Source: Planctomycetota bacterium (GTDB taxonomy: Bacteria; Planctomycetota; Phycisphaerae; SM23-33). Taken from it: 38,039 bases of DNA. The notes under the pieces were generated by a model. The model saw nothing but the letters and a program-made list of their open reading frames with translations. It was not told the origin of the DNA and did not search any database. The DNA is taken from positions 1 through 38,039 of the forward strand of contig JAJRYB010000065.1 in NCBI GenBank assembly GCA_024275995.1, written 5' to 3'. The position numbers and the translations under genes were made by a program. Position 1 is the stretch's first letter. Each line of letters opens with the position of its first letter. Positions 4,425 through 8,550 of this stretch are shown one piece after another.

Positions 4425-5564
4425 CTATTCGCCCGGCATTTTCGCCCGGATCACGTTCTGCGAAACGCCGACGACCTTCAGGCCCTTTATCTTCGCCTTG
4501 ACGATCTTGATCGCCAGCGCCTTGGCGCTGAGCGTCGTCTGCACCGAGCAGGTCGCAATGTTGCTGTCGTACTCGACGTTGACGCTCTTGACGCCCTCGA
4601 CCTTCTTGATCGCCTCTTCCAGGGCTATGTACTGCTCGAAGCTCACGCCGGAGACTTCCAGTTTCACCTCGCCCCCGCCGGACAGTGCGTCCATCCAGAA
4701 CCGCAGAATATCCCGGCGGACTTTCGGGGCGATTGTCTGTGCCTGGAGGTCCAGCGACTGCTTCGCCGCTGAGCGCCACACACGCTGCACGCCGCGGGTC
4801 GCCGCGCCCGGAATACTCGAAAGAAGCTGGGCCGTGTCGGACCGGAAGCATTTGACGTTCGCCTCCGCCTCGTAAGCGAAGGCGCGGATGTTGCCCAGCC
4901 GGGTCGGACCGCCGGTCGCATTGGCGGTCCCGGTGACAAATAACTGCGCCCCGAAACGCCGCGCTATCGCCTGGATCTTCGCCGGGTTGTCGTCGGCGAT
5001 GGCGGCGGCGATGGCCTTGCGATCTATCGCCTTGATCTGCTCGCGGTTGACCAGCAGGAAGCCGTTCTTGAGAAGCAGGTTCTCAATCCGCGTTTGCACG
5101 GTCGAGTTCTCGATGAGGTCTTTTCCGATCATCTCCTTGATGAAGACCATGATCTTCGGATGGCCTTTCTCCTTCAGGAGATTCCGCACGACACCCCAGG
5201 TATCCTCGATGCCCTTGATCGAAACGGTAACGCGCGCCTTGACTTCCCACACGTCGTCGACGGTCTGACGGGCGTATATATCATCGAACGCCTGAACGAA
5301 CCCTGCCGATCGAGTCAGCACCGTATCCTTCTCCAGGACGAAATCGCGCGTTTTGCTCTGCGAGTACACAGTGGTGCCCGCACCGTATTCGACGGCTTTG
5401 CGCTTGGCGTCGGAGATGGCCTCTTCTTTCGTTTCGCCCTGGCCTACTACTGTAACCTCGACGAGGTTCCCGCCCTTCTTGACGAGGGTCTGGGCATTGG
5501 CGACTGTCGCCGCCGAAATGATCAGCGCCGCGAGAACGGGCACACTCCACAGACGTGTTCGCAT
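4425..5564 (-). CDS. Secreted protein with FlgT-N/LPP20-like N-terminal domain
   Basis: The 379-residue product has a signal peptide (basic start, hydrophobic core, cleavage near VANA-Q at about residue 24). Residues about 35-120 (EVTVVGQGETKEEAISDAKRKAVEYGAG and following) have the pattern of the FlgT N-terminal/LPP20 family: a beta strand with VxGxG, then an Ala-rich helix, then a second strand pair containing VWEVKARVTV. The middle part (VFIKEMIGKDLIEN, FGAQLFVTGTA) resembles the TolB/CsgG-like alpha-beta fold that follows it in FlgT. The last 80 residues may form another small alpha-beta domain. The start has AAGGAAG 7 bases upstream. It is the last gene of a four-gene secreted module, before hisD. 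Domain calls are by eye; function is inferred, probably periplasmic. Confidence 0.65.
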   Translation of the reverse strand: MRTRLWSVPVLAALIISAATVANAQTLVKKGGNLVEVTVVGQGETKEEAISDAKRKAVEYGAGTTVYSQSKTRDFVLEKDTVLTRSAGFVQAFDDIYARQTVDDVWEVKARVTVSIKGIEDTWGVVRNLLKEKGHPKIMVFIKEMIGKDLIENSTVQTRIENLLLKNGFLLVNREQIKAIDRKAIAAAIADDNPAKIQAIARRFGAQLFVTGTANATGGPTRLGNIRAFAYEAEANVKCFRSDTAQLLSSIPGAATRGVQRVWRSAAKQSLDLQAQTIAPKVRRDILRFWMDALSGGGEVKLEVSGVSFEQYIALEEAIKKVEGVKSVNVEYDSNIATCSVQTTLSAKALAIKIVKAKIKGLKVVGVSQNVIRAKMPGE

Positions 5565-5649
5565 GATGCGGCTTCCTTAACAAGGCGCGACCACCGGCCC
5601 GATCAAGCGTAAAAGCCCCCGGCCGGGACGGTGAGTTCGCGCGACTTAT

Positions 5650-5687
5650 CGAAATTCTTTTCGAAAAATCGAAAAATCGAAAAATTA
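5650..5687. repeat. Tandem TCGAAAAA-type octamer repeat
   Basis: The gap between the small lipoprotein and the FlgT-like gene contains three consecutive (A/T)TCGAAAAA-type units plus the palindrome TTTTCGAAAA. It directly abuts the small lipoprotein stop codon (TTA at 5685-5687 on the plus strand). On the transcribed minus strand this is a series of T-rich blocks without a strong GC stem, so it is not a classical terminator. Confidence 0.45.
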
Positions 5688-5831
5688 CTCGACTACCGTT
5701 TCCTGGTGGACCGGCTGATTGCGTACTTCCGTCTGTCGATGGGTCTCGATTTCGTCTTCGCAGCCTGAGACCCCAAGGAATAATCCGAGCACGGCTACCA
5801 GTATCACGGTCGAAAGAATGCGCTTCAGCAT
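5685..5831 (-). CDS. 48-residue lipoprotein
   Basis: Translation from the ATG at 5831 gives a short lipoprotein precursor: MLKRILS, a hydrophobic stretch, then the lipobox GVSGC with the acylated Cys at residue 24. The mature part is only 25 residues, acidic at first (EDEIETH) and rich in Gln and Val at the end. AGGAG stands 8 bases upstream of the ATG, a strong start. The gene sits 25 bases after the LPP20-repeat gene and is co-oriented with the whole module. Lipidation by Lgt, LspA and Lnt follows from the lipobox; its partner and role are unknown. It may be an anchoring or priming peptide for the neighbouring secreted proteins. Confidence 0.65.
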   Translation of the reverse strand: MLKRILSTVILVAVLGLFLGVSGCEDEIETHRQTEVRNQPVHQETVVE

Positions 5832-5856
5832 AGTCGGTTCTCCTGATTTGTCGAAT

Positions 5857-7227
5857 CTAGCGAATCGTGATGGACAGTTTTCTCTGATAGAACAGGATCA
5901 TGTTCCACAATGGTTTGAGGTCGGCTTCGACCGTCACCTGGGCCGTTCCGTCCGCCGCAAGCTTCTTTGACGAGTCGATAACGCGAACGCCCTGCTGGAA
6001 GCTTCCCATTGCGGTGTTGATCTGGTCGTTCTGCGCGACGAAGTTGCTCACCGATGTGTTGGATGTAATCATCAGCCCGCCCAACTGCTCGGAGAGTTTT
6101 CGCCTGGCGTCGAGTTCGGCGGCGCGGAACGCCATCAGCTTCGCCCTGGCCTTGTTGTCGTCGTCCGTGTCGAGGGCGCCCTGACCGGTCGCCCGCAGTG
6201 ACTGGGTAATCCACGGAGGCGCCTGGGAGGCGGTCTGCATCACCGCAACGACGGCCGGTGGAACGTCCTTGAGATACTTCCGCGGAGGAACGCCCATCCC
6301 GGTTTCCTTGATGATCGTGTCCTTCGACTTGAGGATCAATTCTTCCAGGCGCTTCATCTTGACGTTGTTGCCCTTGATCTTCGTGTGCACAATGCTCTTG
6401 ACCGTAGCATAGACGGTGCGGAGCTTGACCTGCATCTCCACCTCGACGATCAGTTCGTCTGAGTGATACCGCACGCCAATCTCGCGGGCGCCCCGCAGCC
6501 ACGTCCGCATCTCCACGTTCACCACGTCGGACTCGGTTACGAAATCCTGCACGGTGGTATCCGCGGTGATGCGCACGCCCTTGATGCGCTCGGCAAGACG
6601 CCGCTGGGCGTCCACGCGCGCGGCGCGTTCAGCCATCAGCCTGCCTCGACCGGTGCAATGCGCCATCCAGTACCTCCTGGCCGGCCCGTGAAGTTTCGAG
6701 AATACAGGGCCACCGCTCGATGGGATCAGCGGATCTTCGTCGAAGGGATCGTCTTCCTTTATCGCGCCCTGTCCGACCTCGCGTATCTCGGTGAACTTGT
6801 TGGTCACCGTGATTTCCTCGAAGTCCTGCGCCTTGAACTTGCTGCCCTTGTAGTAGCGGTTGCGAATCTGCTTGAGCGTCGCGACGACGGTGCGAAGTTT
6901 CACCACCATGACGACCTCGCACGTACCGTCTTCCGTGTACTTGGGCTTGCCTACTTCCTTGAACCCGTTCAACCACGCGTTGACGGCGGTTTCGACGGCA
7001 TCGGACTCCGCCACGAAATCCTGCACCGTCGTCGAGGACGTTATCCGCAGACCCTTGATGCGCTCGGCGAGCTTGCGGATACCGTCCACCCTGGCTGCGC
7101 GATATGCCATCAGCTTTCGCCGGGCTTTCTTCTGCTCGTCGACGGCGCCGCCCAGCGCCGGGACCGTAAACACAACCACCAACGCCAGACATACCATACC
7201 CGCCAGCATTTTCGTTCGTCTGCTCAT
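5857..7227 (-). CDS. Secreted protein with three LPP20-type repeats
   Basis: The 456-residue product has a signal peptide (about residues 1-28, cleavage near ALGGA). Three copies of one domain follow, at about residues 33-121, 194-279 and 359-444. Each copy has the pattern of an Ala/Arg-rich helix (KLMAYRAARVDGIRKLAERIKG, LMAERAARVDAQRRLAERIKG, KLMAFRAAELDARRKLSEQLGG in abbreviated reading), then ITSSTTVQDFVAES-like sequence, then a paired beta strand (VVMVVKLRTV, VEVEMQVKLRTV, VTVEADLKPL). This is the LPP20/FlgP type fold. The linker 150-190 is acidic and Pro-rich. AAGGAG precedes the ATG. It lies between the CsgG-like gene and the 48-residue lipoprotein gene. The family includes outer-membrane-associated lipoproteins, but no lipobox Cys is evident here, so a soluble periplasmic scaffold is the inference. 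Confidence 0.7.
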   Translation of the reverse strand: MSRRTKMLAGMVCLALVVVFTVPALGGAVDEQKKARRKLMAYRAARVDGIRKLAERIKGLRITSSTTVQDFVAESDAVETAVNAWLNGFKEVGKPKYTEDGTCEVVMVVKLRTVVATLKQIRNRYYKGSKFKAQDFEEITVTNKFTEIREVGQGAIKEDDPFDEDPLIPSSGGPVFSKLHGPARRYWMAHCTGRGRLMAERAARVDAQRRLAERIKGVRITADTTVQDFVTESDVVNVEMRTWLRGAREIGVRYHSDELIVEVEMQVKLRTVYATVKSIVHTKIKGNNVKMKRLEELILKSKDTIIKETGMGVPPRKYLKDVPPAVVAVMQTASQAPPWITQSLRATGQGALDTDDDNKARAKLMAFRAAELDARRKLSEQLGGLMITSNTSVSNFVAQNDQINTAMGSFQQGVRVIDSSKKLAADGTAQVTVEADLKPLWNMILFYQRKLSITIR

Positions 7228-7295
7228 TCCTGATTCTCCTTTACCGTAAAATTCGGGGGGCCTTATGCCCTGTGTGAACTGTCGTTACGAGCCGG

Positions 7296-8291
7296 TTACA
7301 CCCGCTTCGCCATTTTTTTTTGCAGGTCGCGCACGCGCTTCCTCGCCCGGATGTATTCTTCTTTCGGCTCGAGCCTGTAAGCGCGATTGTAGTATTCCAG
7401 CGCCTTGGCATACTTCCTGAGCGCCTCGCACATGACTCCTGCGTTGAAGATCGCCCCGTGATCGTCGCCCTTCTTATCGATGGCGCGCTCGTAAAGCTCC
7501 AGCGCGTCGGCGTATTCGCCGCTGGCGGCGAGCTTGTTTCCGGTCCTGGCGTACTTGCTCCTGCCGCCCTGCAACTTGACCGAAATCATCCGGGTGTGCG
7601 GACTGATCTTCCTCAGAATTTCCTCGATGCATTCCTGGATCAGTCCGTTTATCACGTGGTCCGTCGGGGGGAGTCTGTCGCCGCCGAAACCAAGCTTGGA
7701 GGCGAAGCTTCCGCCCGCCTTCTTGTCCTTCTCCGAGTCGTACTCGCGGGTGACGGTAACGGTAGCGATGGTTTTTGACGTGTGGATGTCGGCCATGGTG
7801 AAGTTGACCGCCACCAGGCAGTATCGCTTCTTGTACGAGACTCTTTTCATCCTCCGCCTGAGCGGGTCGAACGTGCTGCGCGTTGCGGATTCGTCCTTGG
7901 CGATAACGTTGACGTTCCCGTAGATCATCGCGTCGACCTTGGCGATTTTTCCGAACTTCACGGCAGTGCTCGTATCGGAAACCATCAACTGCGTGTCGCG
8001 TTCGGCGAGCACCGCGCTGAGACGCTTGCGATCCACAAGCACGTACCGCTTGAATCGTTTGTTGTACTCGTCCAGCGCGGAGGCGAGCTTATCGGCGGCG
8101 ACCTCTCCCCAGCGTTTATCCGTCCTGGACATGGCCCCGAACTCGGTTATCGCCAATCGATGCACCTTCCGGGGGATGGAATACTCGGCCGGGTAATCGT
8201 ACGGAATGTCGATCGTGATTTTCTTATCGCATCCCGCTGCTACAAGAAGAGTTGGTATGATCAGCGCCGCAAGCGACCGGATTCCGTTCAC
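7296..8291 (-). CDS. CsgG-like lipoprotein with C-terminal TPR repeats
   Basis: The 331-residue product starts with a lipoprotein signal (LLVAAGC, Cys 21). Residues about 43-230 show the CsgG/TolB-N-like alpha-beta pattern: RLAITEFGAM, AADKLASALDEY, RYVLVDRKRLSAVLAERD, KVDAMIYGNVNVI, AVNFTMADIHTSKTIATVTV. Residues about 254-325 hold two TPR-like helix pairs (ALELYERAIDKKGDD, ALEYYNRAYRLEP). CsgG forms an outer-membrane secretion pore for curli, while related proteins such as FlgO and LpoB act in envelope assembly, so pore formation here is not established. The start is GTG at 8291 with GAGGAG 8 bases upstream. It is the first gene of the module and has its own promoter. No curli subunit gene is nearby. 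Confidence 0.7.
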   Translation of the reverse strand: MNGIRSLAALIIPTLLVAAGCDKKITIDIPYDYPAEYSIPRKVHRLAITEFGAMSRTDKRWGEVAADKLASALDEYNKRFKRYVLVDRKRLSAVLAERDTQLMVSDTSTAVKFGKIAKVDAMIYGNVNVIAKDESATRSTFDPLRRRMKRVSYKKRYCLVAVNFTMADIHTSKTIATVTVTREYDSEKDKKAGGSFASKLGFGGDRLPPTDHVINGLIQECIEEILRKISPHTRMISVKLQGGRSKYARTGNKLAASGEYADALELYERAIDKKGDDHGAIFNAGVMCEALRKYAKALEYYNRAYRLEPKEEYIRARKRVRDLQKKMAKRV

Positions 8292-8314
8292 TGTGTGATC
8301 TCCTCTTTCTCATC

Positions 8315-8346
8315 GGCCTTCGCGCAAGGCGCACAACCCAAAGGCC
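8315..8346 (-). other. Hairpin in the leader of the secreted-protein operon
   Basis: GGCCTT (8315-8320) and AAGGCC (8341-8346) can pair around a GC-rich inner segment. It sits between the predicted transcription start and the GTG of the CsgG-like gene. No T-run is present. Its effect is unknown. Confidence 0.25.
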
Positions 8347-8381
8347 TTCGTGGCGGACGTGTTCAGGTACTCTCGAAATTA

Positions 8382-8410
8382 AACCTAGAGGCGGCACGAA
8401 CCAAAGTCAA
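8382..8410 (-). promoter_or_regulatory. Promoter of the CsgG-like/LPP20/FlgT-like operon
   Basis: On the minus strand TTGACT (8410-8405) is followed after 17 bases by TAGGTT (8387-8382). The predicted start lies about 85 bases before the GTG at 8291. It is divergent from the rplM promoter at 8467-8494. Confidence 0.5.
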
Positions 8411-8466
8411 GCTTGCAGCGGGAAAAACATCTCCCACCCCCCGGCGTTAATTCTCGGAAAATGCGG

Positions 8467-8494
8467 TTGACATACCCGCCAATTCCGCCATAAT
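8467..8494 (+). promoter_or_regulatory. Promoter of rplM-rpsI
   Basis: A perfect TTGACA (8467-8472) and CATAAT (8489-8494) are 16 bases apart. The transcription start would be near 8501, leaving a leader of about 50 bases before the rplM ATG. This is the best -35 match noted in the window, as expected for a ribosomal protein operon. Confidence 0.65.
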
Positions 8495-8550
8495 GCGAGG
8501 CTCTTTGCACGAACTGTCTCTATTTCAGTGAGCTGTCAGGTGAGCGGATA

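Follow-up and report, generated by a model that had tools for sequence, protein, structure and literature searches.

A conserved four-gene module for secreted proteins in Phycisphaerae with FlgO/FlgP/FlgT-type parts, kept in genomes with and without flagella

The stretch of DNA analyzed here (the window; 38,039 nucleotides of a planctomycete of the class Phycisphaerae) carries four consecutive, codirectional genes on the reverse strand between positions 4425 and 8291, all with export signals as judged by reading of the sequences. These are A (8291–7296; 331 aa), a lipoprotein with a CsgG-type domain and C-terminal TPRs for which a FlgO-like role is proposed; B (7227–5857; 456 aa), a secreted protein with three LPP20/FlgP repeats; C (5831–5685; 48 aa), a micro-lipoprotein; and D (5564–4425; 379 aa), a periplasmic FlgT-like protein. 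A and C possess a lipoprotein signal with a lipobox, B and D a plain signal peptide, and the genes are separated by short gaps of 68 nt (A–B), 25 nt (B–C), and 120 nt (C–D), which confirms the four consecutive secreted proteins described in a first-pass annotation of this DNA. The arrangement is not due to chance, as the proteins share 43–65 % identity with those of relatives in conserved gene order.

Upstream of A, the divergent rplM follows across a gap of 259 nt (8292..8550). The module had been credited with its own promoter, and one candidate on its strand, TTGACT-17-TAGGTT (8/12), is indeed present in this gap; however, it is a weak motif match only and does not appear among the promoters listed by a consensus scanner. 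No matches were obtained when the window was scanned for Rfam families and tRNAs. At the other end, hisD begins 44 nt past D. A link to the histidine pathway was considered and rejected, since, of the loci compared, that of the window alone has his genes following D codirectionally (in one relative, for example, hisC and hisB are convergent to D). Likewise, the divergent genes rplM-rpsI-argC-argJ are found upstream of the module in several relatives and are absent from this place in others, which indicates a shared position rather than a shared function with the ribosomal and arginine genes. A role in plasmid mobility was also discarded, B being without any plasmid match.

Protein A, with the lipobox VAAGC, consists of a CsgG-type domain (residues ~59–232; PF03783, E 4.1e-9, 36.5 bits against a Pfam gathering cut-off of 20.8) and TPRs (~249–312; TPR_2, E 2.4e-9, above the Pfam cut-off). 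Only CsgG and TPR models matched above their cut-offs, and the FlgO family model gave no match in Pfam at E<1. Orthologues of A are found upstream of B in most loci examined. The protein is also weakly similar to LpoB (Pfam E 0.083, NCBIfam E 0.0077), which might suggest that A regulates cell-wall synthesis through contact with a penicillin-binding protein, while B, C, and D would act as spacers in the envelope. This appears very improbable, since both matches lie far below the curated cut-offs and are expected from the shared CsgG/TolB-N fold, while B and D would be left unexplained. As a separate observation, A (7296–8291) has an Asp directly behind the lipidated Cys (position +2; GCDKK), where the relatives inspected have other residues; in E. 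coli, Asp at +2 of a lipoprotein is a signal for retention in the inner membrane.

In protein B, the LPP20 model (PF02169) matches three stretches (E 1.1e-14, 55.1 bits against a gathering cut-off of 25.9), and the corresponding repeats span about residues 28–112, 185–270, and 351–437. When the profile of B was compared with solved structures, only FlgP chains or FlgP-type lipoproteins were matched at E<0.01 (best E 2e-7), and the top Foldseek match of the AlphaFold model (pLDDT 74.8) is likewise a FlgP chain (9hmf_A, E 9.9e-3, TMt 0.61). Of the entries matched by B (9hmf, 9yfg, 9yec, 9yds, and 8z5n), at least three are named flagellar motor structures. In a 2025 study of the Campylobacter motor, the segment that follows the SHS2 helix and precedes the second strand was linked to ring formation by FlgP (PMC12222027). 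The repeats of B align with FlgP without gaps, i. e., at the same length, across this insert, yet the single-chain model of B shows helices there instead of a β-hairpin, which counts against the reading preferred below. In the genomes of relatives, almost all LPP20 matches fall on the module itself; since the domain is nearly absent elsewhere, the module does not represent a duplicate of a flagellar FlgP encoded apart from it. Tandem arrays of at least four LPP20-type repeats were furthermore noticed in open reading frames of two distant planctomycetes (G313, contig C111, 25430–27490; G341, contig C50, 333–2054).

The model of protein D (AlphaFold; pLDDT 78, pTM 0.65) finds its best Foldseek matches among solved structures in FlgT, namely 8z5n_0 (E 7.3e-10) and 3w1e (E 3.2e-9), over 387–410 alignment columns. 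Chain 0 of 8z5n, an entry titled "LPHT ring", is taken to be FlgT from its length and the match. Global TM-scores between D and FlgT are low (0.28–0.38), presumably owing to differing domain orientations. Three domains can be distinguished: an SHS2/LPP20-type N-terminal domain (~34–117), a CsgG/TolB-like middle domain (~135–295), and a ferredoxin/HMA-like C-terminal domain (~298–375). In profile comparisons, the first of these matches FlgP (9hmf, E 0.0013) and the last HMA chains (E 9.5e-4). The earlier description of D as FlgT-N-like thus needs to be both widened and qualified: the likeness to FlgT is one of fold and extends over all three domains, whereas none of the Pfam FlgT models, FlgT_N included, matches D at E<1. 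A distant paralogue of D does reach FlgT_N with E 0.0019, below the cut-off. D also shows similarity to LipL46 (NCBIfam, E 1.9e-5 over residues 43–331), albeit with a score of 23.5 against a cut-off of 400.

In many relatives, D is immediately followed by another FlgT-like gene, D2. A longer paralogue of the D2 type (480 aa) was also observed in the same genome as D (G000, contig C118, 26353–27771; 7339–8781 in the extracted locus L041), where it adjoins a short open reading frame whose relatives are ribosomal S21; in relatives, it is found beside genes for pyrophosphatase, ArgRS, and RsfS. These neighbors of the D2 paralogue (pyrophosphatase, ArgRS, RsfS, and S21) were considered as a functional link and dismissed as housekeeping genes.

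The next Foldseek matches of D, which are made through its middle domain, are CsgG, GNA1162, and PelC. Together with the CsgG domain of A, they could be taken to indicate a CsgG/PelC-type portal for export or polysaccharide secretion, in which A, perhaps with the middle domain of D, would form an outer-membrane pore or a periplasmic ring and B and D the collar. We consider this rather improbable, given that clear amphipathic membrane hairpins were not seen when A was compared with CsgG by eye, and that no conserved neighbor family beyond the module, as might be expected of a cargo or synthesis gene, was found in the neighborhoods examined.

Protein C combines a signal sequence and the lipobox VSGC with a mature chain of 25 residues, CEDEIETHRQTEVRNQPVHQETVVE, that ends in VVE. 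Counterparts lie directly 3' of B in many Phycisphaerae loci. These C-like lipoproteins measure ~45–85 residues, with a charged mature part of 22–27 residues in the window's family, where the C-terminus is usually VVE or closely similar to it; in the other families, PGEMVVE is a frequent ending. By these sequence features, C is a predicted micro-lipoprotein that is conserved class-wide and usually ends in VVE, which represents a new finding. It was not found between B and D in G004, G007, G017, and G025 (module loci L045, L047, L048, and L044), all of which carry a tandem D2. As so short a peptide can do little alone, our guess is that C might serve as a tether or plug.

The order A-B-C-D recurs in many Phycisphaerae, and the gene set is conserved across the class. 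In the loci of the window's family, B adjoins D in most cases, usually with A upstream of B and with C in the space that separates B from D. Families other than this one keep A-B with a C-like micro-lipoprotein after B and have D elsewhere, and in one of them D follows a second B-like gene. Outside the class, the full order A, B, C, D was seen in one planctomycete (L134) and B-D in another (L133). The distribution of B is patchy, with strong matches in 66 of 297 class members and few in the rest of the phylum, while D is present in 27 of 60 relatives. In the open-access literature, our searches turned up no publication that describes a module of this kind in planctomycetes.

Whether the module belongs to a flagellum is central to its interpretation. 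The first-pass annotation had stressed that no flagellin, motor, or curli gene is in view. By reading, none was indeed recognized among the open reading frames of the window; however, the host is flagellated, its genes for flagellin, FlhA, FlgI, and hook/rod proteins being located on other contigs, and their absence here is therefore no evidence. More informative are the relatives. Out of 60, 18 carry module and flagellin, 9 the module only, 23 flagellin only, and 10 neither (Fisher p 1.0); for the window's family, the respective counts are 12, 9, 11, and 3 (Fisher p 0.28), i. e., flagellin occurs in 12 of 21 members with the module and in 11 of 14 without. Within the family, module and flagella are unassociated. 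The nine family members with the module and without flagellin also lack canonical FlgI and Flg_bbr_C (hook/rod) matches. The constant co-occurrence with flagellar genes that, according to the first-pass annotation, would have made a plain flagellar role more likely is thus not observed. Some of the flagellin-less genomes are draft MAGs that are 68–83 % complete, while three of the nine carriers (G004, G012, and G019) reach a completeness of 91–95 %. Across 297 members of the class, in turn, 61 of 66 genomes with the module are flagellated as opposed to 173 of 231 without (Fisher p 0.0018), an association that is confounded by kinship, as whole families are without B. From this class-wide enrichment, a flagellar role in most carriers could be derived, and a secondary link to the flagellum is possible in some lineages.

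The main rival explanation is that the module encodes an accessory of the planctomycete flagellar motor (an H-ring or basal disk) whose genes lie apart from the flagellar clusters, and that carriers without flagella lost them not long ago, the operon being a relic of that state. The strong resemblance of B and D to FlgP and FlgT, the flagellated host, and the class-wide enrichment all speak for it. Nonetheless, it appears unlikely: in the nine flagellin-less family members, which are also devoid of canonical FlgI and rod/hook genes, the reading frames of the module are intact and well conserved, D is missing from 23 of the 41 flagellated genomes in the same sample of 60 relatives, and no flagellar gene was recognized beside the module in any neighborhood examined, where neighbors are only partly annotated.

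A required type III secretion partner was likewise considered and rejected, as FHIPEP is absent from the carriers G007, G011, G012, G019, and G026. As a side observation, genes of the FlhA/SctV family were observed in the flagellin-less genomes G004, G010, G018, G020, G024, G031, G042, and G051, where they perhaps belong to non-flagellar type III secretion. Matches to FlgI were obtained in 59 of 60 relatives, non-flagellated ones among them, and a lipoprotein of ~600 residues with a FlgI (P-ring-like) domain was noted whose gene is flanked by those for a LysM-repeat protein and an SMC protein (L124, 4811–6625, G000 contig C93; L125, 5686–7569, G012 contig C80). It could be another case in which a flagellar ring protein has a non-flagellar relative.

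Taken together, we slightly favor the explanation that the products of the operon form an outer-membrane-associated collar or scaffold that is made from the kinds of part found in the Vibrio H-ring and is not obligately flagellar; as the operon persists in relatives without flagella, the structure probably serves some other purpose. Ring formation, assembly of a complex, its outer-membrane location, and a partner are what we infer from genes and models. Each chain of B would supply the equivalent of three FlgP subunits, and B chains may join at their edges to give a curved sheet, a ring, or a disk beneath the outer membrane. As lipoproteins, A and C could anchor this assembly to the outer membrane, with the TPRs of A docking further partners. 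D might link the sheet to a central partner or toward the cell wall; FlgT plays a comparable bridging part in Vibrio. The job of such a structure would conceivably be to brace the outer membrane or to provide the outer-membrane portal of another envelope machine, and in flagellated species the module might serve the flagellum too.

The earlier proposal of a distinct outer-membrane complex of the host lineage is supported in part: the gene set is conserved across Phycisphaerae and kept without flagella, and the class-wide flagellar enrichment leaves room for a flagellar role in some lineages. At a broader level, planctomycetes may harbor a self-contained ring or disk at the outer membrane that is non-flagellar and consists of FlgO/FlgP/FlgT-type parts and a micro-lipoprotein. 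It would either represent the type of scaffold from which the H-ring was recruited or have left the flagellum for a new role; we put this forward tentatively, at somewhat short of even confidence. Such outer-membrane disks and collars have mainly been described as accessories of flagella; a gene set that persists without them offers a testable non-flagellar relative. The module moreover provides a handle on an uncharacterized envelope complex in Planctomycetota, with the three FlgP units in one chain and the conserved micro-lipoprotein as concrete features.

In Vibrio, FlgO, FlgP, and FlgT form a collar (the H-ring) around the flagellum. The parallel to these proteins drawn in the first-pass annotation is borne out, as B matches FlgP chains, D matches FlgT, and the CsgG domain of A makes it the FlgO counterpart, if without a FlgO-family match; the anticipated folds of CsgG, LPP20, and FlgT were all found (by Pfam for A and B, by Foldseek for B and D). 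Module and H-ring (8z5n, 3w1e) thus share a CsgG/TolB-N-type lipoprotein, FlgP/LPP20 units, and a FlgT-fold protein. In contrast to the H-ring, the module lies outside a flagellar cluster and is kept in genomes without flagella, its FlgP unit is triplicated in a single chain that is no lipoprotein, A has TPRs, D has a ferredoxin/HMA-like C-terminal domain, and the micro-lipoprotein C is extra. Since D and A show no matches to the Pfam FlgT and FlgO models, respectively, and since co-occurrence with a flagellum, taken as a feature of H-ring membership, fails in nine carriers without flagellin, canonical FlgI, and hook/rod genes, the module is set apart from a true H-ring, though it would work like H-ring parts and is distantly related to them. 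With the Campylobacter FlgP basal disk (9hmf), it has in common that the repeats of B and the N-terminal domain of D match FlgP in sequence and fold; the difference is that genes and models alone evidence neither concentric rings nor a motor link here, and that the insert of B is modeled as helix. The outer-membrane lipoproteins CsgG, GNA1162, and PelC resemble A in its CsgG domain (Pfam) and D in the fold of its middle domain, whereas A bears C-terminal TPRs and no curli or Pel genes were recognized in the window. Finally, the Leptospira lipoprotein LipL46 is weakly similar to D, which itself is no lipoprotein.
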